A stretch of DNA of 64,000 nucleotides from Gammaproteobacteria bacterium (ex Lamellibrachia satsuma) (GTDB lineage Bacteria > Pseudomonadota > Gammaproteobacteria > Chromatiales > Chromatiaceae). Below, one piece after another: positions 17,099 to 33,794 of the stretch. The stretch is from the NCBI GenBank assembly GCA_019623805.1, contig CP053680.1, positions 1,240,001 through 1,304,000 on the forward strand, written 5' to 3'. The number at the start of each line of letters is the position of its first letter. Within the stretch, counting starts at the first letter, position 1. A program made the position numbers and the translations under genes. The notes beneath the pieces were generated by a model that worked only from the letters and a program-made list of their open reading frames with translations, did not search any database and was not told the DNA's origin.

Positions 17099-18337
17099 AT
17101 GAAATGGAACCAAAGCCAAGCAATGGACCTTGCGGCTGATTCTATCTCCCATCGCAATGGGCAACTTCCTATCTCTCTAGATATTAAAGTGAATTTCGTG
17201 ACTGCCAAAGATTTATCTCTGGAAACAAAAATAATCACCCTCTGGTCCGACTTCGACCCGCTTGCTAAGGAGTGGAACGTTCTTTTACAGCGGTCATGTT
17301 CCAACACGATATTCCTCACCTGGGAGTGGCTGCAGACTTGGCGCGAGGTCACACAAGAGGCCGCTAAGCCGTTTGTCGTCACCGTGCGCGATGAAAATGG
17401 ACGACTGGTTGGAGCGGCGCCATTTTATGTCTCGGAACTGCGTCTGCTAAAAGTGCTCCGATTCCGCACACTGCGCATGATGGCGGACTACGCTACCGGC
17501 TCTGAGTACGCTGACTGGATCGTTGATCCGAATATGGATAAGGCGGTCCTGTCTGCCATTGCAGATGCCCTCCTGGCTGCAAAGTCGGATTGGGATACCA
17601 TCTGGATGCCCCGCATTGCGGGCTGGACCGGGGCCATGGAGAGAATCAAGGCAGCCTGCAAAGAAAAAGGGCTGTTGCACCACTCGCGTACCACCATCTT
17701 CAGCTACTTCGATCTCCCTGTCTCGATGAAGCTTTATGAAGAGAGTTTCTCCCCCAAGCACCGACAGCAGATGCGCCGCAAGCGCCGCAAATTACTCAAT
17801 ACAGAAGGTGTCGAGGTGGTGCTCTGTGAAAAACCAGAGGATCTTCCCCGATTCATCGAGACCCTGTTTGAATTACACTACCGACGCTGGCAGCTCGAGG
17901 GCCAGGAAGGCACCTTCCGCCGCAAACCCTACGAGGCTGAATTCTATCGTCAGTTTTCCCGCATCGCCCTGAAGAACGACTGGCTGTGGCTGATGGCACT
18001 CACTGACCACGGGGAGATCAAATCGATCCAGATCGGCTACGTCTACGACGGTGTCTTTCTGCAGCTGCAGGAGGGCTTTGACCCCGACTATGCACAAGGC
18101 TCAGGCAATGTGTTGCGTACTGAAGTGATTGAGCGGTGCATCGACGCAGGTCTCTCCGGTTACGACTTTCTCGGGGGCGGAAGCGAGCATAAACGGCGAT
18201 GGGGGGCGCAAGAACGGGATGGTTATGATCTGTCTATCGGGCACCCGTCCAAGCTGAAGACCAAACTACTCTTCTTATATGAAATCTGGCCCTCTGGCCG
18301 TTTTTTCGAAGAGATCGGCCTGCTGGGTGGCGTCTGA
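17099..18337 (+). CDS. FemAB/CelD-type GNAT acyltransferase
   Basis: A 412-residue protein of the BioF2-like (Acetyltransf_6) group of GNAT acyltransferases, related to CelD and FemAB. Typical segments are the first-fold TIFLTWEWLQTWREV, the basic HRQQMRRKRRKL linker around residue 225, and the second-fold YVYDGVFLQLQEGFDPDYAQGSGNVL with a YDFLGGGSEHKRRWG ending. Such proteins attach amino acids or acyl groups to envelope glycans or lipids. No good ribosome site precedes the ATG at 17099, and later starts around residues 9-31 are possible. A FemAB-like protein is also a usual partner in exosortase A loci, matching the hydrolases nearby. Confidence 0.75.
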   Translation: MKWNQSQAMDLAADSISHRNGQLPISLDIKVNFVTAKDLSLETKIITLWSDFDPLAKEWNVLLQRSCSNTIFLTWEWLQTWREVTQEAAKPFVVTVRDENGRLVGAAPFYVSELRLLKVLRFRTLRMMADYATGSEYADWIVDPNMDKAVLSAIADALLAAKSDWDTIWMPRIAGWTGAMERIKAACKEKGLLHHSRTTIFSYFDLPVSMKLYEESFSPKHRQQMRRKRRKLLNTEGVEVVLCEKPEDLPRFIETLFELHYRRWQLEGQEGTFRRKPYEAEFYRQFSRIALKNDWLWLMALTDHGEIKSIQIGYVYDGVFLQLQEGFDPDYAQGSGNVLRTEVIERCIDAGLSGYDFLGGGSEHKRRWGAQERDGYDLSIGHPSKLKTKLLFLYEIWPSGRFFEEIGLLGGV

Positions 18338-18611: not shown

Positions 18612-18619
18612 TTATACTA
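18612..18619. repeat. Target-site duplication of the IS1595-type element, left
   Basis: TTATACTA flanks the left inverted repeat and is repeated exactly at 19671-19678. Eight bp is the usual duplication length for the IS1595 family. Confidence 0.92.
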
Positions 18620-19670
18620 CTTGATTAGAACTAATGTTCAGCCAGCCGAAGCCACGCCTCAGATCGCGGCACTGTCGTAGCAGCGGCCCGAATCAGGCGG
18701 GGTAGCATGGCTTTCAGATCGAATCTGCGATTGAATCGATATTGGTATTCGGCCAAGTAACGATGAGCATATTTGCGAAATCCAAACGCATGATAGGTGC
18801 CCGTAATCGCCGTTTTCAGATTGCCCAGCAGGATATTGATCCATGCGAAGCAAGGCATATCGGTACTGCGCCTATGCGTTCCAACCACCTCTCGCTGATG
18901 GGTCATACCAGCCTGCTCAACAGCGGTAAAACAATTCAGCCCATCACTGAGTACGTGGCTTGAGGCGACCAAATACCGTTCGGCCCAGTTCTGGATATCG
19001 ATCTGCTTGAATCCAGGCACTGGATCAAAGCGAACAACCTGCGGGTGACCGTCCTCATCCAACTGAACCGCCGCCACGAAAGGAACTTTGTTCTCTGATC
19101 CCCGTCCTGCCTTGCCTTGGTGTCCACCGCCAAGATAGGCATCATCCACCACCACGATATCACCCTGCAAGGTGCGTCTTTCCTCGCGTTCGTCCATAAC
19201 CTGCATGATCTTGTGTTTGACCCGCCACGCGCTCGGATAGGACACACCGATATGACGCTTCAACTCCAATGCAGATATGTTGTTCTTCGACTGGCTGATC
19301 AGGAACATCGCCTGAAACCATTTGCGCAGTGGCAACTTCGAACCATGGAAAATCGTGCCCGAACGCAAACTCGTCTGGTGGCGGCAGGCGCTACATTGCC
19401 AGTATGTGTGTTGTCCTTCATGAAATCGGCTATGGGTCGTGCCACCACAATGTGCGCAAACAAAACCTTGGGGCCAGCGTGCAGTTTCCAGTGCCGCCTC
19501 GCATTGTTCTTCGGCGCCATAATGTTCAAACAACTCGTTCAAACTCATACCGGCCTGAAACTGAATCGGGTTCATCGCCATGATCGGACTCCTCTTGCTG
19601 ATCTTGGTGATATTATGTGGTCACTGGTGGCTCAATCCGTGAGCCTGGCTGAACATTAGTTCTAATCAAG
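18620..19670. mobile_element. Complete IS1595-family insertion sequence
   Basis: A 1051-bp element bounded by 26-bp perfect inverted repeats (18620-18645 and 19645-19670, outer end CTTGATTAGAACTAATG) and flanked by a perfect 8-bp duplication TTATACTA. It carries one intact transposase on the minus strand and no passenger gene. The duplication's last base is the A of the phosphopantetheinyl transferase ATG, so insertion separated that gene from its original upstream sequence. Perfect repeats and duplication suggest a recent event. Confidence 0.95.
18631..19581 (-). CDS. IS1595-family transposase
   Basis: A 316-residue transposase. The N-terminus has a zinc-ribbon pair, CAHCGG near residue 42 and CSACRHQTS near residue 64, which likely helps bind the ends. 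This is followed by the SGTIFHGSKLPLRKWF region typical of ISXO2-like enzymes. Catalytic segments are VVVDDAYLGG (about residue 145), VLSDG (about residue 210) and the later NLKTAITGTYHAF with conserved His and Asn. The final codons lie inside the left inverted repeat. Full length, no frameshift. Confidence 0.93.
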   Translation of the reverse strand: MAMNPIQFQAGMSLNELFEHYGAEEQCEAALETARWPQGFVCAHCGGTTHSRFHEGQHTYWQCSACRHQTSLRSGTIFHGSKLPLRKWFQAMFLISQSKNNISALELKRHIGVSYPSAWRVKHKIMQVMDEREERRTLQGDIVVVDDAYLGGGHQGKAGRGSENKVPFVAAVQLDEDGHPQVVRFDPVPGFKQIDIQNWAERYLVASSHVLSDGLNCFTAVEQAGMTHQREVVGTHRRSTDMPCFAWINILLGNLKTAITGTYHAFGFRKYAHRYLAEYQYRFNRRFDLKAMLPRLIRAAATTVPRSEAWLRLAEH

Positions 19671-19678
19671 TTATACTA
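19671..19678. repeat. Target-site duplication of the IS1595-type element, right
   Basis: Exact copy of TTATACTA at 18612-18619. Base 19678 is also the first base of the phosphopantetheinyl transferase start codon. Confidence 0.92.
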
Positions 19679-20331
19679 TGTCCCATCACTCCAACCCCGC
19701 CAGCCTCTTCCCCAGAGCCATTGTGACCATCACCGCTACACCGGAGATGTGGGAGACACCCGTCTTAGAGAAGGAGGAGGCGCTGATCGCCGGGTCGGTG
19801 CATAAACGGCGAAGAGAGTTCCGTGCCGGTCGCCACTGTGCCCACCAGGCACTGAAGTGTCTGGGACTGGAGGTTACACCCTTGCTGCGGGGAGAGCGAC
19901 GGGAGCCAATATGGCCACAGGGCTATCTGGGCAGCATCAGCCACTGCGACGGCTACGCACTGGCTGCCTGCGCTTTACAGGGGGATATCGTCGGAATCGG
20001 TATCGACGTAGAACCGTTAAGCCCACTCAAACGCGACGTGGAGCAGTTGATTCATACTGAAAGAGAGCGCCGGTTCATGCAGGCCAATCCGGAAATTCCA
20101 GAGCGTCTGATCTTCAGCGCAAAAGAGAGTCTCTACAAATGCTACTACCCACTAGTGAAGCAATTCTTTGACTTTCAAGAGGTGGAGTTGGCGATTGATC
20201 TTACAACACGCTGTTTCTCCTTTTCTTCCCAACCGGAGGCCGGGATATCTTTTCCTGCCTACGCCAAGTTCCACGGCAGTTTCTTGAACACCGGCAGCCA
20301 CTTGATAACGGGTTGTTATCTGACCCGATGA
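19678..20331 (+). CDS. Sfp/EntD-type 4'-phosphopantetheinyl transferase
   Basis: A 217-residue enzyme that attaches the coenzyme A phosphopantetheine arm to carrier-protein serines. It shows the magnesium motif GIDVEP with D110 and E112, the second motif FSAKESLYKCYYP with E150 and K154, and the EntD-like N-terminal LFPRAIV. It should activate the two carrier domains of the nearby NRPS. An IS element ends at its first base. The present upstream sequence is IS DNA without a ribosome site, and an in-frame stop lies just upstream. The original start may have been a GTG seven codons earlier, now stranded on the far side of the element. Confidence 0.9.
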   Translation: MSHHSNPASLFPRAIVTITATPEMWETPVLEKEEALIAGSVHKRRREFRAGRHCAHQALKCLGLEVTPLLRGERREPIWPQGYLGSISHCDGYALAACALQGDIVGIGIDVEPLSPLKRDVEQLIHTERERRFMQANPEIPERLIFSAKESLYKCYYPLVKQFFDFQEVELAIDLTTRCFSFSSQPEAGISFPAYAKFHGSFLNTGSHLITGCYLTR

Positions 20332-20347
20332 GCAGCGATGCTGCTCA
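20329..20347. terminator. Palindrome holding both convergent stop codons
   Basis: TGAGCAGC and GCTGCTCA form an 8-bp stem with a 3-nt loop. The left arm begins with the TGA of the phosphopantetheinyl transferase and the right arm ends with the reverse complement of the hydrolase TGA. It may serve as a shared transcript end, but there is no U-tract. Confidence 0.45.
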
Positions 20348-21172
20348 GTAGCGAATACTTTGTTCAATCCAGGCACCAATCAGGTTGACCAGATTCTCCC
20401 GGTCACTGCCTAGAGAAAAATTGTGGTCCCCTTTTGCAAAGTATTCAACCTGCAGGCGATCGCTGAACTCCAGACCTGGAAAGGATTCACAAAACTGCGT
20501 GGGGTAGTTGTATTGGCTGTTACTCCCCGCGAAGACCATCATCAAAGAGACATCCCTGCTGATCAGCGTCTTTAAATCCTTCTCTACCTGCTCCTTAGAC
20601 GGCAAAATCCAGTGGTAACTGACGTCACCATAAGTACCTTCATCCTCAGCCCGCCCAGCAGTTTTAAGACTTCGAGCAATCTTTCCTTGCCAGAAAGATG
20701 AGGAGATCAGTTTGGGCAGATAGCGGTTTAAATAGTAGCGTCGGGTCGGGTAGGCATACCCTTCAAGCAGCACCGCGCCACAGACCCGTTCATCAGCCAC
20801 CGCCGCGCGGAATGCATTGTCGGCCCCGGTACAAAGACCGTAAAGCACGAAACGGTTGATACCTCTTCGCTGCTGCAGAAAATCCATCGCTTCCCGTATC
20901 TCATCGATACTGCGTTCCTGAATAGGCTTGGCGGTCTTACGGGTAACACTGTCACCTACACCGGAAATATCGAAGCGGAAAGTAAACCACCCCAACTCAC
21001 CCAGAGCCCGGGCCAAAGTAACACTCAAACGATTCTGCCCCACATGGTGCAAGAGTCCGGCGTTTAGCAATAGTACCGCCGGTCTGTCGGCGTCTAGGGT
21101 GGAAGGTTCCGTACTCACCCCAACAAGACCGCCATCACTGCCAAAAAGGTAGACACGCTCTCTCATGTTCAT
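20345..21172 (-). CDS. Alpha/beta hydrolase, exosortase A-associated hydrolase 1-like
   Basis: A 275-residue alpha/beta hydrolase. The nucleophile elbow reads GLCTGA (about residue 112), with Cys where Ser is usual, and the C-terminal KGDHNFSLG supplies the His. The GLCxGA form and the N-terminal LLLNAGLLHHVGQNRL resemble hydrolase 1 of exosortase A loci, whose substrate is unknown. Its start overlaps the stop of the second hydrolase by ATGA, so translation is coupled. It is the third minus-strand gene after the NRPS and may process or release its product. Confidence 0.82.
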   Translation of the reverse strand: MNMRERVYLFGSDGGLVGVSTEPSTLDADRPAVLLLNAGLLHHVGQNRLSVTLARALGELGWFTFRFDISGVGDSVTRKTAKPIQERSIDEIREAMDFLQQRRGINRFVLYGLCTGADNAFRAAVADERVCGAVLLEGYAYPTRRYYLNRYLPKLISSSFWQGKIARSLKTAGRAEDEGTYGDVSYHWILPSKEQVEKDLKTLISRDVSLMMVFAGSNSQYNYPTQFCESFPGLEFSDRLQVEYFAKGDHNFSLGSDRENLVNLIGAWIEQSIRY

Positions 21173-21963
21173 CGCGCCGCCAACTTTGCTAGAATCCGTT
21201 TCGAGACACCATGCATCATCATCGCTTCACCAAGCTTGTCCAGACTTTCCCAACCCGTCTGCTCCTCAACTGCATGATAGGTTGTTGGAACTTCGATACG
21301 GGTTAAATGGGCCTGCAGCTCTCGATACTCCAACCGCTCATCACTGGAGATCAGTTCCGCTTGACGAGCCCGGACTCTTTTCAGCCGCATCAGATCACAG
21401 TTACCCAGTGAGTCCCGCAGCGACTGGGGCCATCGATAGCCAATCAGATCATCAGCCCCTGCATCGATCGCCTGCAAACGTGAGACTGGAAATCGATCAA
21501 GGTCAGCATAATAGGAACGGCTGAAACCGATCTGAAAATCAACATAAGCGGCGCCACTGACCACCGGATCCCACAAAATAAGGTCTTCAACCGCCATCTC
21601 GACTGCAGCTAACGTGGCTAAGGCGGCACCTACCCTCACACCAACCAGCGAAACCTTGTCCAGGCCAGCCAGATCCTTCAACTCCTGGGCCGCCACCTTT
21701 ACATCCTCGACCCACTGTTCCAGACTGCCCTCCCCATCATCGCCGGAAGAGCCCCCGGTGGCGAAGTAGTCGAAACGCAGCACATGAAAACCCTCCCGCG
21801 CCAGCTGTTCGGCGAGCCGCACCAAGCCCCGGTGAGTGCGCATGTACTCGCGTCCCAGACTGTGACAGATCAGCACCGCTGCATCGCGATGCTTCCCTGA
21901 GGTTGGTGTGTGGTGCACACCGTAAAGAGGACGCTGCCCATCCCCAAAAATAAACGCGCTCAT
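21169..21963 (-). CDS. Alpha/beta hydrolase, exosortase A-associated hydrolase 2-like
   Basis: A 264-residue alpha/beta hydrolase-fold protein with the HSLGREYMRTHRGLVRLAEQLA and FDYFATGGSSGDDGEGS segments typical of hydrolase 2 in exosortase A loci. Its elbow reads GVRVGA (about residue 105), so the nucleophilic Ser is replaced by Arg; the family commonly has GLRLGA here. Catalysis by the usual triad is therefore unlikely. AGGA lies 8 nt before the ATG. It is 162 bp downstream of the NRPS and overlaps hydrolase 1 by 4 bp. Confidence 0.82.
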   Translation of the reverse strand: MSAFIFGDGQRPLYGVHHTPTSGKHRDAAVLICHSLGREYMRTHRGLVRLAEQLAREGFHVLRFDYFATGGSSGDDGEGSLEQWVEDVKVAAQELKDLAGLDKVSLVGVRVGAALATLAAVEMAVEDLILWDPVVSGAAYVDFQIGFSRSYYADLDRFPVSRLQAIDAGADDLIGYRWPQSLRDSLGNCDLMRLKRVRARQAELISSDERLEYRELQAHLTRIEVPTTYHAVEEQTGWESLDKLGEAMMMHGVSKRILAKLAAR

Positions 21964-22038
21964 ATGGCAATCCTGTACTGCACTCCCTTTTAATCAATAG
22001 GGAATTCTGTAATATATTGATAACTGGCAGTGTCAAAG

Positions 22039-22059
22039 CCCCCCAATGGGACAGGGGGG
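22039..22059 (-). other. C6/G6 hairpin between NRPS and hydrolases
   Basis: Six Cs at 22039-22044 and six Gs at 22054-22059 can form a stem with a 9-nt loop in the 162-bp gap after the NRPS stop. No U-tract follows on the minus strand, so it may attenuate or protect the mRNA rather than stop transcription fully. Confidence 0.35.
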
Positions 22060-22125
22060 AGAAGACGACCCCTCCATGATAAATCATGTCCAGTCAGTAA
22101 AGACACTTGCCGTGGAAACCTTGAC

Positions 22126-25100
22126 TCAATCCTTGAATAGCTTTGACTTAATGCGACCCAGCACCCCTCTCTCAGCTCTATTGTCCCTCCCTGCGAAGGA
22201 TACGCTCTCCTCTGAAGGCTCTTCACTCTTCTGCACTTCCTCCGGCCCGCCAGTAAGCACTGGTTCCAGACCCGCCGAAATCTGCGACAGGGAGTCGGAG
22301 ACCAGTGATCGCAACGACAACTTGGTACCAAGCTGCTCCTGCGCCTTTGCCACAACCTGCATGGCCAGCAGAGAGTGCCCACCAAGGTCAAAGAAATTAT
22401 CATGCAAACCAACTTGGTCGATGCCGATAACTTCCTGCCAGATAGCCGCCAGCCCTTGTTCAAGAGCGGTTTTCGGTGCCTCGAACGTCTCTTCTATTGC
22501 AGCGCTGGCAAAGGGCGCTGGCAGGGCCTTGCGATCCACCTTACCATTGGGTGTCAGTGGCAGTTCGTCAAGCTCCACAAAGTGCTGTGGAATCATGTAG
22601 TCGGGCAGTTCGGCCCGAAGATGTTTACGCAGTTCGGTGGGCGTGGTGTGGGTCCCCGCTTCAAGCTCATAGTAAGCTGCCAGGCGCCGGTCTCCGAGGC
22701 GAACTTCCCGGACATCCACAACGCTGCGTTTAACCTTGCCATATTCCGCAAGAACTGATTCTATCTCCCCTAATTCGATGCGGAATCCCCTCACCTTCAC
22801 CTGGTTATCGAGACGGTTTAGGTACTCCAGCTCGCCATCCACTCTATAACGCACCAAGTCACCAGTGCGGTACATCATCGTCCCGTCTCCGGAAAATGGA
22901 TCTTCCACAAAACGCTCTTCGGTAAGTTCCGGCCGTCCCAGATACCCCCGAGTGACACCCAGTCCACCGATGTACAGCTCCCCGTGAACACCGACCGGCA
23001 CCAGCTGCTGGTATTGATCAAGCACATAGAGCCTCGTATTATCGATGGGACGGCCAATCCTGATGGGCTCTTCCTCGCTGGTGATGTGGAAACAGGTGGA
23101 CCAGACCGTGGTCTCTGTAGGTCCATACATGTTCCACACCCCTCCAGTGAGGCGAACCAGATCCCGCGCCAAACCCTGAGACAAGGCCTCACCACCACAG
23201 AGAACCTTTAAGCCGGCATCTCCCTGCCAACCTGAATCCACAAGCAATCGCCAGGTTGCCGGTGTCGCCTGCATCAGGCTAACCCCATGGTCCTGCATAA
23301 GATCCTTCAGATCGCGGCCATCCAATGCCTGTTCCCGGCTGGCAATCACCACCTTGGCGCCAACGATCAATGGCAGGTAGAGTTCCAGCACGGCGATATC
23401 AAAAGAGAGAGTGGTCAATGCCAGCACAACATCGTTCACGTCAATCCCGGGACACTTCGCCATGCTGGTGAGAAAGTTGCTCACCGCTTGATGCTGAACC
23501 TGAACCCCTTTGGGACGACCTGTCGAACCCGATGTATAGATGACGTAGGCCAGGTTATCCGCTGTTTCCAGTGGCTCTGGCGTATCTGCACCCAGCTTCC
23601 GGATCAGGTCTTTCTCCGCATCGATAGCCAGTACGTTTGCCTTGCAGGCAGGCAGCTTCTCCAACAGAGAACGATGGGTGAGCAGCAGAGCCACGTCCGC
23701 ATCGTCCAGTATGTATCCGATGCGATCAGCGGGATAGTCGGGATCGAGGGGCAGATAAGCGCCACCGGCCTTGAGCACCCCGAGCAGCGCAACCAGCATA
23801 TCGACGGAACGTTCCAGGCAGAGCCCCACCAACACATCGGGACCTACTTTCAGGGTTCGTAGATAGTGGGCCAGCTGATTTGAACGAACATTGAGTTCCC
23901 GGTAAGTCAGTTGGCTCTCACCAAAGATCACTGCCACCTCGTCAGGCGCCTGTGCCACTTGTTGCTCAAATAGATGATGGAAGCCTGCGGAACCGGCCAG
24001 CTCCACATCTGTCTCGTTCCAGTCATCCACCAGCCGCGTCTTCTCTTCCGGCGAAAGCATCGGCAACGCAGGAATCGCAACGGTTGGATCGGTAACCACA
24101 GCCTCCAGCAAGCAATGTAAGTGAGTGGACATGGCCTGGATAGTGACCTCGTCGAACAGGTCTGGGTTGTATTCGAAATAACCAGCGACTCCATCCGCAC
24201 CCTCCGCCAGCTCCAAGGTCAGGTCGAAACGGGACATGCCGGCATCCAGGGTGCGCCGGTTGACTGCCAACCCTTCCATGTCGATCTCCGGCATTGGCGT
24301 ATTATGGAAATCAAACATCACCTGAAACAGCGGCGTGTGACTCATATCCACCGGCAGATGGAGCGCCTGCACCAGTTTTTCAAATGGGAGCTCTGCATGG
24401 GCATAGGCTCCGGTCGCGGTCTCCTTTACCCGCGACAACAGGACGTTAAAATCGGGGGTGCCACTGAGGTCGGTGCGCAACACAATATTGTTGACAAACA
24501 TACCCAACAACGACTCCAACTGTGGATGATCGCGGTTGGCGATAGGCGAACCGACGATAATGTCATCCATTCTGGAATAGCGGGAAAGCAGGACCTTGAA
24601 TCCAGCCAGCAACGTCATATAGAGGGTGCATCCCTGAGTCTGACCCAGTACCGCCAGGCTTTCCGTCAACTCCTGTGACAGTGTTACCGGTATACGTGCG
24701 CCCCGGAAAGTCTGATTAGCCAGGCGGGGACGATCCTGTGGGAGATCTAGAACCGGCAGCTCGCCGGCAAGTCGCTCCTGCCAATAGGTGAGTGAATCAA
24801 CCAGCGTCTCATCACTGAGGCGCTCCCGCTGCCACTCGGCAAAATCTGCATATTGTAGTGAAGGCGGCGACAAAACGTCTTCCCGTCCCTGACGGTAACC
24901 ATTGTAGAGTGCGTTCAACTCGCTCATGAAAACACCCAGCGACCAGGAATCGTTGGCACCTTGATGAATGATGAGCAAAAACAGATGGTGCTGCGCATCG
25001 AGCTTGAACAGCAGGGTGCGCAATACCGGCCCCAACGCCAAATCCAACGGCATGCAGATCTGCTGCGCTGTCTGCTTCTGTAGAGAACTCTCCTGATCAG

Positions 25101-28100
25101 TCCCAACCTGGTCGGACAGATCATGCTGTTCCAGCGGCAGCTGCAACTCTTCAGCTATTACCTGATAAGGACGCCCTTCTTCAGATGCAAAGACTGTGCG
25201 CAGCACATCATGCCGCCGCACCAGATCGTTTAGACTCCGTTCCAGCGCCTCAGCATCAAGTTCTCCGGTCAGCTCCAGGGCGAAATAGTCATTGTAGTGA
25301 GCTCCTGGCTCCAGCTGATCGATAAACCACATGCGTTGCTGTGAGAAGGAGAGCCTGGGTTGTTCGGCATCTGTCCGTGGTATGTCGGAGAAATCCAACA
25401 ACTGATGGCCTTCGCTCCCCTGAACCAGCCCCAGCAGTGCTTCACACTGGGCGGCACGTTCATCCGCGTCAGCGGCGGCAACAACCACTGCCTCCTGATC
25501 GCCGGATTGGCGGAGTTGTTGCTGTAGCGCCGTTGCCAACTCCTCGTTTGACATTGAATAGATACGTTGCACCCAACCGGCAATTTCCTGCACCTGACCT
25601 GGATGCGTCTCATCTGCGACCAGTCGCTCCGCCACCTGCTCTATGGTAGGTGCCTCGAACATGGTGCGCAGCGGTAACTGCACGCCAAATATGGCACGCA
25701 GCCGGGCAATCAGTTGGGCTGCGGTAAGTGAGTGACCGCCATGCTCGAAGAAGTTGTCGTTGATTCCAATACGGTCCAGAAGCAATACTTCCTGCCAGAT
25801 ATCTGCCACCGCCTCCTCCAGCGCATCACGCGGCGCCACATACTCTGCTCCTGAGGCAACCTGCGCACTATCGGGATCGGGCAATGCCTTGCGATCAATC
25901 TTTCCATTCGGCGTCTTCGGCAGCACAACGAGAAAAACAAAAAGGGAGGGCAGCATGAAACTCGGCAGCTTCTCGGCAAGAAAACGCTTCAGTACTTCAG
26001 GTTCCGGCGGATTGGCATGGGCAGACTGCAAGTAAGCTACCAGCATCCGAGAGCCACTGGCGTCTTCCCGGTCCACTACCGCACACTCCACAACCTCTGG
26101 ATGAAGTCCGAGGTGGGCATCGATCTCACCCAGTTCGATGCGATGGCCACGAATCTTGACCTGATGATCGACACGGCCGAGGAAGTCCAGAATGCCATCC
26201 TTCCGATAGCAGGCGAGATCACCGGTACGATAGATGCGCGCACCCTCCTGCCCGGAAAAAGGATCGGGCAGAAACCGCTCAGCGGTCAGCTCCGGCTGTC
26301 CCAGATAACCTCGCACCACACCATCTCCACCGATATAGAGTTCGCCAGGAACACTCGCCGGGGTTGGCTGCAGTTGCTCATCCAACAGATAGATACGCGT
26401 GTTGGAGATAGGACGGCCGATGGGCACCTGCTCCAACTCACCGTCAAGCTGGTGGGTAGTCGACCAGATAGTGGTCTCGGTAGGACCGTACATATTTATG
26501 ACCTTGCCGGAAACCAGCTGGTGCAGTTCCGCCGCCACCGATGGCGGAAATGCCTCGCCCCCAACCATCATACGGTCGAGGCCCGCCAACGCTGCCCGGG
26601 CATCAATATCATTCAACAGCATAGTGGCCATGGAGGGGGTACACTGAAAATGGCTCACCTGATTGCGACGAATGAGACCAGCAATAGAATAGTCCACAGT
26701 CTCATCATTGCTCCGGCCAGCTGCTTCCTTTACTTTGTTGAGGAAGGGCAGGTGATCAAGCACAACTTCAGATTCGACGCCGTAATCAACCAGGCAGCCG
26801 ATCTCATCAACGCCAATCTCTTTTAACTGGTCGACCATCTCCAGCGCACGTTCGGGCGTACCGAAGAGGCCGCTTGTGCGGTAGTAGCGTTCAAAAGCGA
26901 AGTCAAGCAGATCATCGAAATCCTCGGCGGAGATGTTGTCGACAAACTCGTCGATGGTCTGCACGCCGCGGGTCGAGAGATCCTTGAAAGTGGGAAAATG
27001 CCAGGCCGCCGCCTTAACCAGCGTTGCAGCACTGGTCAGGTAGCTCTTCATGGGGCCACGAGCGGCCTGTTTGACCGCCTCCTCGTCCTCGCCAATCAAG
27101 GTATGCAGCATAATCACCACATGCCCCTCGCCTGGGTGCCCAGCTGACTTCCACGCATCCCGATAGAGCTGGATACTCTTGCTCACGTCTTCTACGGACT
27201 GCCCCAACAGATGAGTCAGGATGCCACAACCCGCTTCACCCGCCATGCGGAAGGTTTCTGGATTGCCCGCCGCCGTAAGCCAGACAGGCAGCTCATCCTG
27301 CACCGGCCGTGGCTGGGTCGTCACTTCCACGTCACCTTTGGGGCCAGGAAAGACCACCGTCTCCCCACGCCAAAGCTGCCGTACCTGCTCCAGGGAGTCC
27401 ATCATCACCTGTTTGGCATTAGCGTGATTTTCCGGCTTGATGGCGAAATCGTTAGGTTGCCAACCTGCTGCGATAGCAATGCCAACACGGCCGTCGGAGA
27501 GATTGTCCACCACCGACCAGTCCTCCGCCACGCGGATGGGACTGTGCAGGGGCAGTACCACACTGCCGGAACGCAGCTGGATATTGTTGGTGACCGCAGC
27601 CAAGGCAGCACTGATTACGGCTGGGTTAGGAAATAGCCCGCCGAATGAGTGAAAATGGCGCTCAGGCGTCCAGGCAGCAGTAAAACCATTGCCATCACCA
27701 AATTTAACCGCCTCCATCAATAGATGGTATTTGCTGTGAGTTTGGATATCCTCGTTGCTGGAGTAGTTCCAGAAGAAGAGGCTGAAATCGATCGACTTGT
27801 CAGGATATCGGCTGCTCAATGCCTCTGTGGGCAGATGGTCCTCATCTCCCCCGTAGAGCACCACCTTGAAACCACGGCAGAGCGTCCAGAAGAGCTCCAA
27901 TACCGAAATATCGAAGGAAATACTGGTTACTGCCAGCCAGGTACCCACATCAGCACCTATGCGGTCATCCATACCAGTGAAAAAGTTGACCACATTGCGA
28001 TGCTCCACCATAACCCCTTTGGGTTTCCCTGTGGATCCGGATGTATATATGATATACGCCAGATTTGATGAGCGGACTCCGGTCTGCGGCGCATCGCCAG

Positions 28101-30198
28101 GGAACCTCGCTATATTCGGCCACTCTGCGACCGGATCAAGCAGTTCCACTTCCAAGCCACCGAAGACCCCCAGGTGCTCCTTCCCGCAGAGGATCAGAGA
28201 GAGGCCGGCATCCTGAACCATGTAGCGCAGCCGCTCCTTAGGGTAGTGAGGATCCATCGGCACATAGGCTCCTCCCGCCTTGAGCACCCCCAGCAAGGCC
28301 ACTACCATCTCCGGAGAACGTTCCAGGGAGATGCCCACCGGCACATCCGGACCCACCCCTTGCCTGATCAAATATTGAGCAAGACGATTGGCCCGAAGAT
28401 CAAGCTCCTGATAGCTGAGAAGCTGATCCTGGAACACCAGGGCGGTGGATTCCCGAGCCTGCGCGGCCTGTTGGGCAAAGAGCTGATGGATGCAGTCATC
28501 GGCGGCATACGTCTTTGAGGTGTCGTTCCAATCTTGCAGCAGTTGCTTCCGTTCCTCCTGTGAAAGGATGGAATAGGTTCCCACTGCTCGCTCTTCGTTG
28601 CCACCAATCTGGCGTACCAACTCTTCAAACTGGGCCTGCATCCGGGTGATGATTTCACTACTGTAGACGGTGGTGTCGTAATGCCATTCCAGGGCACCAT
28701 CCTGACCAGGCACCACCAGCGCCAGCGGCAACCCATCGGTCAGCAACGCTTCCGCTTCGCCCCCCCGGATCACGGTGACCGGTAGCGGTGGTAAACCAGC
28801 TGCGTTCAACCTGCCTTCCAACCCCTTGACGCGAAGAGCCAGATCCCGAGAAAAGCCGTTGTGCTCACGCAACACCACCAGGGAGGACTCCAGCTGCTCG
28901 CAGAGCATACGCACGGACTCCACCTCGCGCAGATCTATCCGCCAAGGCACCAAGGGCGAGATAAGCCCCGCAGCTTTCCGCGCTTGAACCTGCAGGCGTT
29001 GATCGCTATACCCCAGATCGAACCGTTCATGGCCGGTGAGACGTGCGATATAGTGGGCGAACAGTGCTGCCAGGCGGTCGCCGCCGGGTGCTCCTGAGAG
29101 GGTCTGGGAACTGCTTTCATGCGTACTCCCACCTCGTTCTGCCGGTTTATGCCGGGCATAGGGGATGGCTGCCAGCTCCAACTGCTGCAGTTTACGCCGC
29201 CAGAAACGCTCGTCACGACAGACTGCCTCATCAACCTGCGTCACATCCTCGCGCAAGGAGTGGGAGAGAAAGGGCAATCGGTTCCCAACGCTCAAACCAG
29301 CCGCTTGTACCACTTCCAAAGGATTGCGGTTCTGATCCGCATAATCACGCAGTCCGGAGATTCGTACATCCCAGGATGCGGTGCTGATGCTGAGGCCTTG
29401 TTCTCCGATCTCCAGCAGAGTTCCCCCCGGCTGCTCCGAGGTACTCTGCAGCAGTTCAATATTCTCGGCCGCTAACGCCCATTCCCCCAGCCAGAGCTTG
29501 GGTAACGCCAGGGGGTTGTCATAGGCGCCAAAGTCGAGGGCACGGAAAATAGCCTCCAAAGCCTCGGCTTCAAGCTCGAAATCCAGTACCGCCGCCGCCT
29601 CAGGCCGCTTGCAGTAACCAAAATAGGATCGATGGCTCAGGTCCTGGGGTATTGGCTGCAGATTTTCTTCCAACACCGCCTGCACCAGCTCCTGAAAGCT
29701 ATCCAGCCCCGACTCGTAACACTTGGCATTCAGGGAGAGAGAGGTTTCAGTCACACTGATCGGAAATATGCGCTGAGTGAGAATATCTCCCTCGTCTACG
29801 CCCCCTGCAATCTGATGCCAGGTAACGCCGTGCTGCGACTCACGATTAAGGAGTGCCCAAGCCGGGGTATTGAGCCCCGCATAGCGGGGCAGCGGCCCGT
29901 CGTGGAAGTTGATCGCCATGCGCTGCGCGGACTCCACTGCAGCTTCGGGCAGTACGGACAGGTTGACGATACTGAAAAGGAAGTCGAAGGGCTTGTGGCG
30001 CAGGCGTTCCACCATGCTGCTATCGTTGTTGAAGCAGGGAATCTCCTGTTCCTCGCCCCAGGCTCTGACATCCGGGTCGCTGCTAAAAATACCGTATACA
30101 TCAAACCCCTGCTGTAAAAGATGTTCGACACAGCGAATTAGGAAGGATTCACCACCAATCACATAGCAACTTGAACGTCCTGCTACTTTCGCAGACAT
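22126..30198 (-). CDS. Hybrid NRPS with formyltransferase and monooxygenase-interrupted adenylation domain
   Basis: A 2690-residue non-ribosomal peptide synthetase. Rough domain order: formyltransferase 1-240 with the N97, H99, D138 triad (INFHDGPLPR, VDEGDIL); a condensation C-terminal half only, 325-540; adenylation 1, 555-1440, with YTSGSTGKPKG at 718, an inserted TIGR04020/MupA-Atu3671 luciferase-like monooxygenase at about 800-1150, then NMYGPTETT at 1235; carrier 1 with S1490; condensation 1610-2050 whose active site reads HQGANDS (H1745, Q1746, D1750) rather than HHxxxDG; adenylation 2, 2070-2560; carrier 2 with S2609. A short basic tail follows, with no thioesterase or reductase. Both pockets read D-I-L-Q-(M/L)-G-M-(I/V)-W, close to glycine codes by eye. 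AGGGGATA precedes the ATG. Confidence 0.93.
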   Translation of the reverse strand: MSAKVAGRSSCYVIGGESFLIRCVEHLLQQGFDVYGIFSSDPDVRAWGEEQEIPCFNNDSSMVERLRHKPFDFLFSIVNLSVLPEAAVESAQRMAINFHDGPLPRYAGLNTPAWALLNRESQHGVTWHQIAGGVDEGDILTQRIFPISVTETSLSLNAKCYESGLDSFQELVQAVLEENLQPIPQDLSHRSYFGYCKRPEAAAVLDFELEAEALEAIFRALDFGAYDNPLALPKLWLGEWALAAENIELLQSTSEQPGGTLLEIGEQGLSISTASWDVRISGLRDYADQNRNPLEVVQAAGLSVGNRLPFLSHSLREDVTQVDEAVCRDERFWRRKLQQLELAAIPYARHKPAERGGSTHESSSQTLSGAPGGDRLAALFAHYIARLTGHERFDLGYSDQRLQVQARKAAGLISPLVPWRIDLREVESVRMLCEQLESSLVVLREHNGFSRDLALRVKGLEGRLNAAGLPPLPVTVIRGGEAEALLTDGLPLALVVPGQDGALEWHYDTTVYSSEIITRMQAQFEELVRQIGGNEERAVGTYSILSQEERKQLLQDWNDTSKTYAADDCIHQLFAQQAAQARESTALVFQDQLLSYQELDLRANRLAQYLIRQGVGPDVPVGISLERSPEMVVALLGVLKAGGAYVPMDPHYPKERLRYMVQDAGLSLILCGKEHLGVFGGLEVELLDPVAEWPNIARFPGDAPQTGVRSSNLAYIIYTSGSTGKPKGVMVEHRNVVNFFTGMDDRIGADVGTWLAVTSISFDISVLELFWTLCRGFKVVLYGGDEDHLPTEALSSRYPDKSIDFSLFFWNYSSNEDIQTHSKYHLLMEAVKFGDGNGFTAAWTPERHFHSFGGLFPNPAVISAALAAVTNNIQLRSGSVVLPLHSPIRVAEDWSVVDNLSDGRVGIAIAAGWQPNDFAIKPENHANAKQVMMDSLEQVRQLWRGETVVFPGPKGDVEVTTQPRPVQDELPVWLTAAGNPETFRMAGEAGCGILTHLLGQSVEDVSKSIQLYRDAWKSAGHPGEGHVVIMLHTLIGEDEEAVKQAARGPMKSYLTSAATLVKAAAWHFPTFKDLSTRGVQTIDEFVDNISAEDFDDLLDFAFERYYRTSGLFGTPERALEMVDQLKEIGVDEIGCLVDYGVESEVVLDHLPFLNKVKEAAGRSNDETVDYSIAGLIRRNQVSHFQCTPSMATMLLNDIDARAALAGLDRMMVGGEAFPPSVAAELHQLVSGKVINMYGPTETTIWSTTHQLDGELEQVPIGRPISNTRIYLLDEQLQPTPASVPGELYIGGDGVVRGYLGQPELTAERFLPDPFSGQEGARIYRTGDLACYRKDGILDFLGRVDHQVKIRGHRIELGEIDAHLGLHPEVVECAVVDREDASGSRMLVAYLQSAHANPPEPEVLKRFLAEKLPSFMLPSLFVFLVVLPKTPNGKIDRKALPDPDSAQVASGAEYVAPRDALEEAVADIWQEVLLLDRIGINDNFFEHGGHSLTAAQLIARLRAIFGVQLPLRTMFEAPTIEQVAERLVADETHPGQVQEIAGWVQRIYSMSNEELATALQQQLRQSGDQEAVVVAAADADERAAQCEALLGLVQGSEGHQLLDFSDIPRTDAEQPRLSFSQQRMWFIDQLEPGAHYNDYFALELTGELDAEALERSLNDLVRRHDVLRTVFASEEGRPYQVIAEELQLPLEQHDLSDQVGTDQESSLQKQTAQQICMPLDLALGPVLRTLLFKLDAQHHLFLLIIHQGANDSWSLGVFMSELNALYNGYRQGREDVLSPPSLQYADFAEWQRERLSDETLVDSLTYWQERLAGELPVLDLPQDRPRLANQTFRGARIPVTLSQELTESLAVLGQTQGCTLYMTLLAGFKVLLSRYSRMDDIIVGSPIANRDHPQLESLLGMFVNNIVLRTDLSGTPDFNVLLSRVKETATGAYAHAELPFEKLVQALHLPVDMSHTPLFQVMFDFHNTPMPEIDMEGLAVNRRTLDAGMSRFDLTLELAEGADGVAGYFEYNPDLFDEVTIQAMSTHLHCLLEAVVTDPTVAIPALPMLSPEEKTRLVDDWNETDVELAGSAGFHHLFEQQVAQAPDEVAVIFGESQLTYRELNVRSNQLAHYLRTLKVGPDVLVGLCLERSVDMLVALLGVLKAGGAYLPLDPDYPADRIGYILDDADVALLLTHRSLLEKLPACKANVLAIDAEKDLIRKLGADTPEPLETADNLAYVIYTSGSTGRPKGVQVQHQAVSNFLTSMAKCPGIDVNDVVLALTTLSFDIAVLELYLPLIVGAKVVIASREQALDGRDLKDLMQDHGVSLMQATPATWRLLVDSGWQGDAGLKVLCGGEALSQGLARDLVRLTGGVWNMYGPTETTVWSTCFHITSEEEPIRIGRPIDNTRLYVLDQYQQLVPVGVHGELYIGGLGVTRGYLGRPELTEERFVEDPFSGDGTMMYRTGDLVRYRVDGELEYLNRLDNQVKVRGFRIELGEIESVLAEYGKVKRSVVDVREVRLGDRRLAAYYELEAGTHTTPTELRKHLRAELPDYMIPQHFVELDELPLTPNGKVDRKALPAPFASAAIEETFEAPKTALEQGLAAIWQEVIGIDQVGLHDNFFDLGGHSLLAMQVVAKAQEQLGTKLSLRSLVSDSLSQISAGLEPVLTGGPEEVQKSEEPSEESVSFAGRDNRAERGVLGRIKSKLFKD

Positions 30199-30351
30199 GT
30201 CTATCCCCTTTTTTTCTTATAATTAATGGCTATTGAGGTTAACCAAAGCTAAAAACCAATACAAGCAAGACGAATCTGTCCTAACCAGCCTAGGCCCTGA
30301 AGTTACCAGTAAATGAGCTATCTTTCATACGCAGATAGTCAAACTTGCGAC

Positions 30352-31713
30352 CTATGGCGTCGTTTCTTCACCATCCCAAAGAATCAGCTCCTCGATCCGC
30401 TGCGTCATTCGCGCGATCTGAGGCCAGTTGTGCGCGACGATATCCTGGGAGTGGGCCAGGTTGTTACGCAGTGACTCCAACTCCTTGACCACATTCTTGG
30501 CCGTGCGGCGACTGTCGAATCCAAGGGATTGCAGTTGACTGTCATCGGTGATCAGGATCTTGGCCTTGTCGGAAAATTGCAGACAGTCCAGAAGACGGCC
30601 GGACTGGCCTCTGCGGGTGCGCTCCTGCTGCATCTTAAGCGCCTTCGCTAGGCGTGACTCGCTCAACTGCTCACGCCAAAGATCATCCGGAAAGATTCTC
30701 TCGATCCTTTCCACCAGATTCATCTCTATGATGGTGACCATGCCAAACAACCACATGCGCACGATCGGTTTCTGTATATGCTCCCGCAAAATAATGCCGG
30801 AAACGCCGCCCACCATGGAGACGAAGCAGCTCTCATGCCGGGTCAGGACATGTATCACATCGGAAAGTGATGCATTCTCACGCAGCACCTGTCCCCGGGC
30901 AAATGAGCGGTGGTGATCCCTGCAAAAGCCGGAGAGCAGATCCACTTCATGAATATATCCGCTGACTAATCCGTCATCCCGCAGCCCGGCTACTGACCAG
31001 CCATTTTTCTGCAATATCTTGCGCACAGATTTTGCCGACGTTTCCGCATCGAATGAAGCCAGGGGCTCGGCAATATCCCGCGCAGAGAACGACTTGGTAA
31101 ACAGCCGCAAGGCACGTCCCTGTTCAAAATTCTGACCAAAACCGGTACGTATAGGCGCCGCTATTGAGTTTGACACTGCGGCGGGGTCGTGGCCGATCTT
31201 CTCTTGACAGCGCACCCAGACTTTACGGGCCTGCTTTTTCAACCGCTCATCGCCTTCTTCAAGAACATCGAGCAGCGCCGCCATCTCCGCCAGGTAGACA
31301 CGTCCAAAGCGGAGATCATGCTTGCAGATATCCCGGCAGTTGTCGGTAAGATCTGCCAATTTGATGGTCTTCGCCCGAACCGATGCCTTTGCCGTATGGT
31401 CCCGATCGATCGCCTTACGCACCGCCCGGTTGCCGTCACTGGCACGACTGATGTCCGTCAGATCGGATACCAGGGCCGCCACATCCGGACCAAAGGCCGT
31501 TTCAATATCGCGCACCGTGGCAGTGGTGTCCTCTACCGTGTCATGCAGCCAGGCCGCTGCAATCATGTGCTCATCATCGGTGACCTCAGACACGATCTCA
31601 GCCACCGCCCGCAGATGGACATCGTAGGGTTGGTTGGAATATTTACGCCGCTGATCGATACGCGCATGGGCCTGGGTGGCATAGAGTGCCGCCCGTTCAA
31701 CCAGGTCACTCAT
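30352..31713 (-). CDS. SpoT-type HD hydrolase with CBS-like region
   Basis: A 453-residue cytosolic protein. The N-terminal 190 residues form a RelA/SpoT-like HD domain: HLRAVAEIV, AAWLHDTVEDT with the HDxxED metal motif, and KLADLTDN. The middle (about 240-350) looks like a CBS pair (SVAGLRDDGLVSGYIHEVDLL), and the C-terminus is helical. No synthetase domain is present, so it may hydrolyse (p)ppGpp or another nucleotide. The start is set at 31713, 5 bp after the stop of the sensor kinase; an ATG further upstream would run back into that gene. Co-expression with the kinase is likely. Confidence 0.8.
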   Translation of the reverse strand: MSDLVERAALYATQAHARIDQRRKYSNQPYDVHLRAVAEIVSEVTDDEHMIAAAWLHDTVEDTTATVRDIETAFGPDVAALVSDLTDISRASDGNRAVRKAIDRDHTAKASVRAKTIKLADLTDNCRDICKHDLRFGRVYLAEMAALLDVLEEGDERLKKQARKVWVRCQEKIGHDPAAVSNSIAAPIRTGFGQNFEQGRALRLFTKSFSARDIAEPLASFDAETSAKSVRKILQKNGWSVAGLRDDGLVSGYIHEVDLLSGFCRDHHRSFARGQVLRENASLSDVIHVLTRHESCFVSMVGGVSGIILREHIQKPIVRMWLFGMVTIIEMNLVERIERIFPDDLWREQLSESRLAKALKMQQERTRRGQSGRLLDCLQFSDKAKILITDDSQLQSLGFDSRRTAKNVVKELESLRNNLAHSQDIVAHNWPQIARMTQRIEELILWDGEETTP

Positions 31714-31718
31714 AACAT

Positions 31719-33794
31719 CTACCCATATTCCTGCGTCTGCACATATCTGGAGATCACCAAATCCAACTGTTCCGGCTCTACCGGTTTGTTGATAAAGCCA
31801 TCCATCCCGACCTCGTGACACTGTTCTATAACATCCTCTGCGGCATTGGCAGTGAGCGCCAAAATCGGCATGTGCAGTCCCTCGGGCTCCTGCTCACGGT
31901 AGAGACGGGTGAAATCAAAGCCATCCAGATGCGGCATACGAAGATCGATAAAGGCCAGATGAAATTCGTTACCCGTCGCCGCCTCCAGCGCCTGTCTTCC
32001 ATCAATGGCATGAATCACCCGGTGCCCCTTCTGAACCAATAGCGTCGTCAGCACCTTCGCAGCAATCGAATTATCTTCCGCCAACAGAATATTTACGCCG
32101 CTGTCTTCAGCACGCTGGCCTCCACGTTTGGGAAATGCCGCCTCATCCTCACCGCTCGCACTCTCCCCTCGCAGCGCCCGCACTGCGGCTTGCGCAAGCT
32201 GATCGACAAGAAAAGGCTTCAGTAATACCGGGATCGCCCGTGTCGGCAGATTCACCTTGCGCCCTCGATAGCCGGCAAACAGCACCGGAGGTTGTCCGGT
32301 CACGTAATCATCGAGCTGGTTCAGCACGCTCTCCGGATCTATACCATTGACCGAATCACAGAGCAGGATCAGCTCCCAGGCCTGCTTTGGCATCTGCTTC
32401 AGTGAATCTACGCTGGAGACCGCTGTTACCTCCATGCCCAACTCCGTCACCACCTCGCTGTATACGGCCCTCCCCTTATCGCTGGCTTCAAGCAGTAGAC
32501 AGCGGCGGCCGGACAATACAGGGGGATTAACCCCAACTTTGCTGCCATCCTTCGGCAGCAGGGGGAGTTTTACCCAAAAACAGGTTCCCACACCCAGTCG
32601 ACTTCTGACCCCGATATCCCCCCCCATCAAGCGCGTCAGGTCGCGAGCCACCGTGGTTCCAAGGCCTGTACCACCGAAGCGACGGCTGGTCGACACATCC
32701 GCCTGCCAGAATATCTCGAATATATTCTCCAGCTTCTCAGCCGGGATGCCGATCCCGGTGTCCTCCACCTCAAGCCGAACATGCGGCACCGTTACCTTCT
32801 CGTCACCCGTCGCCAGCAAGACACGCAGGATCACCTCTCCCTCATCCGTGAACTTGATCGCATTACCCACTAGATTGAAGAGAATCTGAGAGAGCCGCAG
32901 TTCATCTCCCAATAACTCTCTGGGTAGCCGCGCATCCACCTGACAGATCAACTCAACCTGCTTCTCCTGCGCCTCTGTTGCCAGGGTTGAAGTGACACCA
33001 CGCAGCAGATCCCGGACTTCAAAGGCACTGCTTTCCAGCTCCAGCTTGTTGGCATCGATCTTGGAAAAATCGAGGATATCCCCAATCAATGCCCGCAACA
33101 GATGAGCAGAGGCCTTGATTGAGTGCAGATACTCCTGCTGTTCTGAATCCAGGCGGGTGGATTGCATCAACCGCGACATACCAATCACCCCAATCAAAGG
33201 GGTACGCAGTTCATGGGTCATGGTGGCAAGAAAATCCCCCCGTGCCTTGTTTGCCTGTTCCGCCTCCTGCCGCGCCTCATGCAGCTTGCGCAGCAGGGAG
33301 TATTGGTACATCGGCAGCACCACCAGCAGCAGCAGGAAAAAAAAGGCCTCGAAGGTGTGCTGCTGCCACTCATCCAGGGCGACCAACACAACATTGTAGG
33401 CGAAGACGCTAAGGATGGAAGCGACCTTCAACAGCCGCTTGCCATAGCGGGTTCCGTAGGAGACGAAGATCCAGATGTAGAGCAGATAGAAGGGGCTGAT
33501 TGCCTCGTTGGTGAGAAATATTGCCAGACTGACGGCTACGATATCGGAAACAACTGTGACGTAGCGACGCGCCGGCATCTCCGGCACATAGTAGATACTG
33601 ACCAGCAGGCCCAGAAAGACCAGCATGAAGAAACCGAAAAAGAGATAGTACTGCCCGACATCGACCACATAGTAGTCGGTCCAGGCGCCAAGCCCGATAT
33701 AACCGACACTGAAGCCCCAGATCGCCAGCCTCACCCAGGCCGACTGGTACTCCGAATTGCGCAGCAACTCCCTGGAAAAAAGGCGAGACAACAT
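31719..33794 (-). CDS. RpfC-like hybrid sensor histidine kinase
   Basis: A 691-residue inner-membrane kinase. The N-terminal 165 residues hold five or more hydrophobic segments resembling the sensor of RpfC. The phosphorylated His is H194 in ATMTHELRTPL; the ATPase boxes are NLVGNAIKFTDEG, VEDTGIGIP and FGGTGLGTTV. A degenerate receiver-like region spans about 425-560, and a complete receiver lies at the end with the phosphate-accepting D617 in AFIDLRMPHLDG. Unlike RpfC there is no C-terminal HPt domain, so phosphate must pass to a separate protein. The HD protein follows 5 bp downstream. Confidence 0.9.
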   Translation of the reverse strand: MLSRLFSRELLRNSEYQSAWVRLAIWGFSVGYIGLGAWTDYYVVDVGQYYLFFGFFMLVFLGLLVSIYYVPEMPARRYVTVVSDIVAVSLAIFLTNEAISPFYLLYIWIFVSYGTRYGKRLLKVASILSVFAYNVVLVALDEWQQHTFEAFFFLLLLVVLPMYQYSLLRKLHEARQEAEQANKARGDFLATMTHELRTPLIGVIGMSRLMQSTRLDSEQQEYLHSIKASAHLLRALIGDILDFSKIDANKLELESSAFEVRDLLRGVTSTLATEAQEKQVELICQVDARLPRELLGDELRLSQILFNLVGNAIKFTDEGEVILRVLLATGDEKVTVPHVRLEVEDTGIGIPAEKLENIFEIFWQADVSTSRRFGGTGLGTTVARDLTRLMGGDIGVRSRLGVGTCFWVKLPLLPKDGSKVGVNPPVLSGRRCLLLEASDKGRAVYSEVVTELGMEVTAVSSVDSLKQMPKQAWELILLCDSVNGIDPESVLNQLDDYVTGQPPVLFAGYRGRKVNLPTRAIPVLLKPFLVDQLAQAAVRALRGESASGEDEAAFPKRGGQRAEDSGVNILLAEDNSIAAKVLTTLLVQKGHRVIHAIDGRQALEAATGNEFHLAFIDLRMPHLDGFDFTRLYREQEPEGLHMPILALTANAAEDVIEQCHEVGMDGFINKPVEPEQLDLVISRYVQTQEYG

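Follow-up and report, generated by a model that had tools for sequence, protein, structure and literature searches.

How a nonribosomal peptide synthetase (NRPS) that ends on a carrier domain, with no thioesterase (TE) or reductase behind it, may start, modify and finally let go of its chain is the question raised by the 64,000-nucleotide stretch of DNA analysed here (the window), which belongs to a complete, 4.32-Mb, one-contig genome. From sequence comparison we propose that this TE-less NRPS would start a chain on glycine, oxidise that glycine and pass a very short chain ending in Gly to a pair of release proteins, a proposal for which we see the case as evenly balanced.

Results

A putatively formylating NRPS with two predicted glycine modules

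The NRPS is encoded in a single open frame on the minus strand (30198→22126). A plus-strand reading of 22126-30198 was rejected because the frame is full of stops, and a truncated or chimeric gene is ruled out in the window genome by the single 2690-codon frame in a one-contig genome. Pfam and NCBIfam profile scans, joined by hhalign for the half condensation domain, recover at these coordinates the whole domain string read in the first-pass annotation, with two carrier domains and two copies of AMP-binding, the first split in two and the second whole. The features are as follows.

22126..30198, minus strand: NRPS gene, 2690 aa, FT-C'-A(Gly,LLM)-T-C*-A(Gly)-T
29299..30198, minus strand: formyltransferase domain (FT), residues 1-300, with Formyl_trans_N (Pfam) at 59-163
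28525..29247, minus strand: half condensation domain (C'), C-lobe only, about residues 318-558, from hhalign
27787..28491, minus strand: adenylation domain 1 (A1), N-terminal part, residues 570-804
26728..27786, minus strand: luciferase-like monooxygenase (LLM), TIGR04020, residues 805-1157, inserted between A4 and A5
25849..26727, minus strand: adenylation domain 1, C-terminal part, code DILQMGMIW
25609..25821, minus strand: carrier domain T1, GGHSL at 1487
24019..25368, minus strand: condensation domain C2 (C*), Condensation 1616-2056, HHxxxDG replaced by HQGANDS
22519..23991, minus strand: adenylation domain 2 (A2), code DILQLGMVW
22291..22491, minus strand: carrier domain T2, GGHSL at 2606

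In the FT domain, all ten relatives that were aligned share N97, H99 and D135. The triad had first been read as N97/H99/D138; the asparagine and histidine are indeed conserved, but the acid is D135, while D138 varies. These intact N/H/D residues support the idea that formylation may initiate the chain. Among solved structures the closest in sequence to the FT domain are sugar N-formyltransferases, with Fmt, ArnA and others also matched, and LgrA is not among the matches at E 0.001. The F-A-T module of LgrA (linear gramicidin) likewise carries an N-terminal formyltransferase ahead of A-T. However, LgrA has no monooxygenase and its formyltransferase lies directly before A-T, whereas the window NRPS, with an FT nearer to the sugar N-formyltransferases, has a C-lobe remnant between FT and A. 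In hhalign profile-profile comparison with a C-domain alignment, residues ~325-558 of this remnant align with the C-terminal lobe of C domains only (probability 98.9, E 3e-17, template columns 194-456), which confirms the earlier description of a C-terminal half alone; there is no HHxxxDG motif in it.

The LLM segment scores 479 bits against TIGR04020, with a curated cut-off of 244, and lies between motifs A4 (FDIS, 762) and A5 (NMYGPTE, 1235) of adenylation domain 1, so that the insertion is inside the adenylation core, at the MtaG/MelG-type site, as had been claimed. The computed pocket codes, DILQMGMIW for A1 and DILQLGMVW for A2, both match glycine codes and bear out what had been read by eye. 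A published set shows the same association, since every MOX domain in it resides in a Gly-activating A domain, four of them with the common code DILQLGMIWK (PMC12283262). The modules of MtaG (myxothiazol), MelG (melithiazol) and SolF (solanimycin) likewise combine glycine adenylation with an embedded flavin monooxygenase. In MtaG and MelG the monooxygenase is inserted between a4 and a5, as in the window NRPS, and the carbinolamide is then cleaved to an amide and a glyoxyl thioester; in SolF the insert lies between a8 and a9, and the alpha-hydroxyglycine that persists in solanimycin B is attributed to this flavin monooxygenase module (PMC10204066). All three differ from the window module in that they act on a chain built upstream, whereas the window module is the first, with an FT in front. 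A TE domain follows in MtaG and MelG, unlike in the window NRPS. The earlier parallel with MtaG/MelG is therefore sound for the insertion site and the glycine code but not for a primary amide as the outcome, as a first module has no upstream peptide. The solved relative closest to the LLM is the monooxygenase domain of PuwE (PDB 6KET, E 2.6e-106), which has been proposed to help make the 3-amino-2-hydroxy acyl chain of puwainaphycin on the assembly line (PMC4219810). PuwE differs in acting on a beta-amino fatty acyl chain, with a monooxygenase that is not within an A domain.

A condensation domain without its catalytic histidine

The active site of C2 reads HQGANDS instead of HHxxxDG (H1745-Q1746-GAN-D1750-S1751), with the other core motifs intact. 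The catalytic histidine is Gln in both the window and the sister species described below, so this loss predates the split of the two species, while HH is kept in nearly all of ~190 other C domains in the loci that we fetched. Between window and sister, dN/dS is 0.17 for C2, 0.065 for the LLM and 0.18 for the whole aligned NRPS; the T1-C2 linker (1.55) and the C-terminal tail (0.71), both short stretches, show no clear constraint. Since C2 is without its catalytic histidine, peptide-bond formation may fail and a dipeptide product is uncertain.

The first module recurs in other Proteobacteria

Uniqueness of the first module is ruled out, for a protein of ~1,550 aa with the order FT-half-C-A(Gly,LLM)-T is encoded in about 20 loci of Alphaproteobacteria as well as in a second gammaproteobacterium, and novelty of this module is accordingly unsupported. 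Domain order and length are unchanged in the eight loci inspected, and relatives with a readable code also have glycine codes. At E<=1e-80, TIGR04020 is matched by 4 of 369 genomes sampled from the class, 3 of 210 from the order and 19 of 398 from the phylum, and a tblastn search of plasmids with the FT domain returned 272 records, among which FT-type NRPSs of rhizobia are numerous. Annotated copies ('MupA/Atu3671 family FMN-dependent luciferase-like monooxygenase') occur in Ruegeria, Parasedimentitalea, Aminobacter and Aliiroseovarius, and unannotated ones in Rhizobium, Neorhizobium and Methylobacterium. These proteins share with the window NRPS the domain order, the half C domain, the glycine code and the FT triad, often with an adjoining phosphopantetheinyl transferase (PPTase) gene, and their LLM is 52-62% identical to that of the window. 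The usual neighbours in the alphaproteobacterial loci are PKS, glycosyltransferase and PPTase genes. The loci that we fetched from the sample of the phylum mostly show the arrangement PKS - GT2 - FT/LLM protein - PPTase, and the surrounding genes often resemble those for glycosyltransferases and chain-length determinants.

The relatives differ in that they end after T and mostly have a separate type I PKS (KS-AT-KR-DH-ACP-TE in one scanned), often with a GT2, whereas the window NRPS is fused to C-A(Gly)-T and has no PKS gene directly beside it. The window NRPS resembles a variant that has its starter module fused straight onto the terminal glycine module. In the other gammaproteobacterium (genome G101) the FT/LLM protein, with an LLM 62% identical to that of the window, is encoded directly after hydA-hydB, the gene pair described in the next section; downstream follow an A-T-sulfotransferase protein and a KS-AT-ACP-aminotransferase-C-A(Gly)-T protein. 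This locus (L080:4974-15583, L081) is set among surface-polysaccharide-looking genes. The domain order had first been thought to be without precedent. That does not hold for the first module, but a narrower claim survives for the full string, since no second protein combining FT, LLM and C-A-T was found in the collections searched; the direct fusion of the starter to C-A(Gly)-T is the unusual feature here. We found no described product for the FT-C'-A(LLM)-T proteins in the literature searched, and open-access searches on FT with luciferase-like monooxygenase, on Endoriftia with nonribosomal peptide and on exosortase with nonribosomal peptide returned nothing on point.

A hydrolase pair follows the NRPS

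Two genes of the alpha/beta-hydrolase fold lie directly downstream of the NRPS gene, on the same strand and with a mutual overlap of 4 bp.

21169..21963, minus strand: hydA, 264 aa, alpha/beta-hydrolase fold with Arg110 in the nucleophile elbow (G-V-R-V-G), best NCBIfam match TIGR03101
20345..21172, minus strand: hydB, 275 aa, alpha/beta-hydrolase fold with a Cys114 elbow (G-L-C-T-G) and a conserved His250, best NCBIfam match TIGR03100

The first-pass annotation had stated that the NRPS has no thioesterase or reductase. This is correct within the protein, but the conclusion that a release domain is lacking is misleading, because this conserved pair follows in trans. An arginine (once a lysine) replaces the nucleophile in the HydA elbow in all aligned copies, and a cysteine is present in every HydB copy with the elbow covered. 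The AlphaFold models are confident (pLDDT 81 for HydB and 85 for HydA). Foldseek retrieves mostly esterases and lipases for both proteins; the release enzymes DcsB (a thioesterase) and GrgF are also among the fold and sequence-profile matches of HydB, and one myristoyl-ACP thioesterase is among the matches of HydA.

In many bacteria the same pair comes after terminal modules that have no TE. It lies directly behind NRPS genes in Marinobacter, Desulfoluna and several MAGs, and there the code of the final A domain, or of a neighbouring one, is often that of Gly (DILQLGMVW). We also ran the HydB profile over 369 gammaproteobacterial genomes, sampled irrespective of NRPSs, and fetched the surroundings of the matches, which occurred in 18 genomes. 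In six fetched loci HydA is fused behind the last carrier (A-T-HydA, A-T-C-A-T-HydA or C-A-T-HydA), with hydB next. An NRPS precedes hydA and/or hydB in five further loci, a small ACP-like gene precedes hydA-hydB in two, and three encode HydA and HydB as a single fusion protein. A Pfam scan of one of the C-A-T-HydA fusions shows no TE domain. Taken together, the apparently missing release step is probably performed by the HydA and HydB encoded directly after the NRPS, and we infer that HydA takes the position of a TE while HydB performs the covalent chemistry. The three HydA-HydB fusions are 580-614 aa long (L159:5917-13453, L160:6782-8605, L161:6529-8352); FemAB-like genes are seen nearby in L159 and L161, and small acyl-carrier-looking ORFs in L160 and L161. 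L149, L150 and L154 have A-T-HydA together with HydB and no C domain at all. Beside the single-module A-T-HydA gene and its hydB, an aminotransferase gene adjoins in L149:6943-10845 (class III by Pfam) and a similar-looking one in L154:8547-12555; these two loci may possibly be aminoacyl-transfer systems that work without condensation.

A matching pairing of two hydrolases is known in the exosortase-A-associated hydrolases TIGR03101/TIGR03100. For each of the ten HydA homologues scanned, TIGR03101 is the NCBIfam model matched with the best E-value. However, the window proteins score under the curated cut-offs (HydA 95.1 bits against 202.75 for TIGR03101, HydB 75.4 against 168.45 for TIGR03100) and the only exosortase of the genome is elsewhere, at 3.67 Mb, in a locus where no HydA/HydB-like gene was seen; a neighbourhood link to exosortase was thus rejected for this genome. 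Relatives of the NRPS-hydA-hydB trio often sit among surface-polysaccharide-looking genes, and in one Marinobacter locus (L022) a putative exosortase gene, judged from the start of its sequence, lies near the trio. Such surroundings suggest, as a lead only, that the chain may end up on a surface polysaccharide or a lipid instead of being simply hydrolysed. This idea comes from the relatives, as the exosortase of the window genome lies far off and no HydA/HydB-like gene was seen beside it.

The cluster occupies a variable site

Among named relatives the closest is a MAG from the gammaproteobacterial symbiont living in the tubeworm Lamellibrachia anaximandri (L001; genome G020), of the same genus and 96% identical in the best segment. 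The order hydA-hydB-PPTase is kept in this sister genome. The LLM is carried by two of six congeneric genomes. In three of the four congeners without it, an ATP-grasp gene and a metallophosphoesterase gene stand at the NRPS site, between HD-domain and FemAB-like genes (by reading the genes in two and from a nucleotide match in the third); the fourth, G464, is also without the HD flank. The two kinds of site represent a cassette swap.

19671-30361 of the window: NRPS-hydA-hydB-PPTase cassette
L142:6608-8887, L144:3831-6272, L145:12447-14822: ATP-grasp plus metallophosphoesterase cassettes
19678..20331, plus strand: Sfp-type 4'-phosphopantetheinyl transferase, convergent, downstream of the cluster
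17099..18337, plus strand: FemAB-like GNAT protein

The FemAB-like gene is present in the four congeners read at this site, whichever cassette they have, so its product perhaps lies outside the cassette. The HD-domain gene (30352-31821; RelA/SpoT-like, 71 bits against a cut-off of 499) overlaps an upstream hybrid histidine kinase gene and adjoins the variable site in four congeners. An IS1595-family transposase gene (18631-19581) lies next to the PPTase gene within an insertion (18619-19671) that is absent from the sister genome and is apparently flanked by an 8-bp duplication, TTATACTA, by eye.

G020 was rejected as a clean second copy. A high-copy repeat interrupts its NRPS homologue, as assembled, near codons 9 and 764, with contigs ending inside the gene in the repeat, and residues 1-564, including the FT segment, were not found in the assembly (2.2 kb, either deleted or merely unassembled). 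The repeat (L084:1-97, L147:1-116) has 100% identical copies at at least 40 places, mostly contig ends, and only two good copies in the window genome. With the sister gene broken in its assembly and four congeners without LLM, the pathway appears dispensable.

Discussion

The proposed pathway would begin with A1, whose code predicts loading of Gly on T1. The FT, with its N/H/D residues intact, would then formylate the amine of this glycine from formyl-THF, and the embedded FMN-dependent LLM, by analogy with the MtaG, MelG and SolF modules, would hydroxylate the alpha carbon of the T1-bound N-formylglycine. The resulting carbinolamide may persist, as in solanimycin B, or break to formamide and glyoxylyl-S-T1, as in MtaG/MelG; both outcomes are possible. 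A2 would load Gly on T2, and C2 would join the two units despite its missing catalytic histidine, which is the weakest step. HydA, with Arg for Ser and in the place of a TE, would receive the T2-bound chain, and HydB would use its cysteine nucleophile to cleave the chain or transfer it to an acceptor; the pairing and position of the two proteins come from comparison, the chemistry is our inference. The very small product suggested at first is supported as well. In its widest form, our reading is that HydA/HydB may be a previously unrecognised two-protein off-loader of carrier-bound aminoacyl or peptidyl groups, in which an Arg-elbow pseudo-thioesterase would dock the chain or hold it in place and a Cys hydrolase would pass it on, probably to an acceptor at the cell surface, the cargo here being a formylated, alpha-oxidised Gly-Gly or glyoxylyl-Gly from an NRPS with a histidine-less C domain. 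We put this wider reading forward tentatively, as somewhat improbable in its entirety.

Several other explanations have to be weighed against it. The LLM may be a chain breaker, N-formyl-alpha-hydroxyglycyl-S-T1 collapsing to formamide and glyoxylyl-S-T1, so that formylation would serve for activation only and the product would be glyoxylyl-glycine (free acid C4H5NO4, 131.022). Because the window module is the first, MtaG/MelG-type chemistry would here release formamide and leave a glyoxylyl thioester; the a4-a5 insertion site and the class of glycine code are those of the cleaving MtaG and MelG, and there is no upstream peptide to be released as an amide. Solanimycin B argues against collapse in that it keeps an internal alpha-hydroxyglycine, though its insert is of the a8-a9 kind, and on balance we regard this outcome as unlikely, if only a little more so than the off-loader reading. 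A dead C2 is somewhat less probable again. In that case T1 and T2 would be separate aminoacyl donors and HydA/HydB would transfer only glycine, or another group, from T2, with no dipeptide made. Such a loss is favoured by the HQGANDS that both species have in place of HHxxxDG, a change that few other C domains show, and by the existence of A-T-HydA plus HydB systems that lack a C domain. However, the remaining core motifs are intact, the dN/dS of C2 is low, and the second histidine of HHxxxDG is dispensable in some C domains.

That the cluster is a horizontally acquired one, now decaying and without present function, seems distinctly unlikely. It is found in two of six congeneric genomes with another cassette at the same site in three others, its NRPS is broken in the sister assembly and an IS1595 element has inserted next to the PPTase gene, all of which would fit decay, but the 2690-codon frame and every catalytic motif except the C2 histidine are intact, and dN/dS against the sister remains at 0.18. 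We give least credence to the view that HydA and HydB are unrelated tailoring esterases and that the chain is freed spontaneously or by a distant enzyme. Their scores under the TIGR03101/TIGR03100 cut-offs, and closest folds that include ordinary esterases and lipases, would allow it; the near-constant pairing with HydB and, in six loci, the fusion of HydA to the end of the final carrier make it highly improbable.

The HydA/HydB pair is the most interesting part of this locus. Many TE-less NRPSs may be complete after all, as HydA/HydB provides a concrete candidate for their release route, and the pair suggests a role for families whose sole description at present is 'hydrolase 1/2, exosortase A system-associated'. 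As a module, the FT-half-C-A(Gly,LLM)-T starter recurs in Proteobacteria, and the PKS-free, two-module version in the window offers a simple system for what an FT and an LLM make together. If functional, the cluster would represent a specialised-metabolite pathway in a tubeworm-symbiont lineage.
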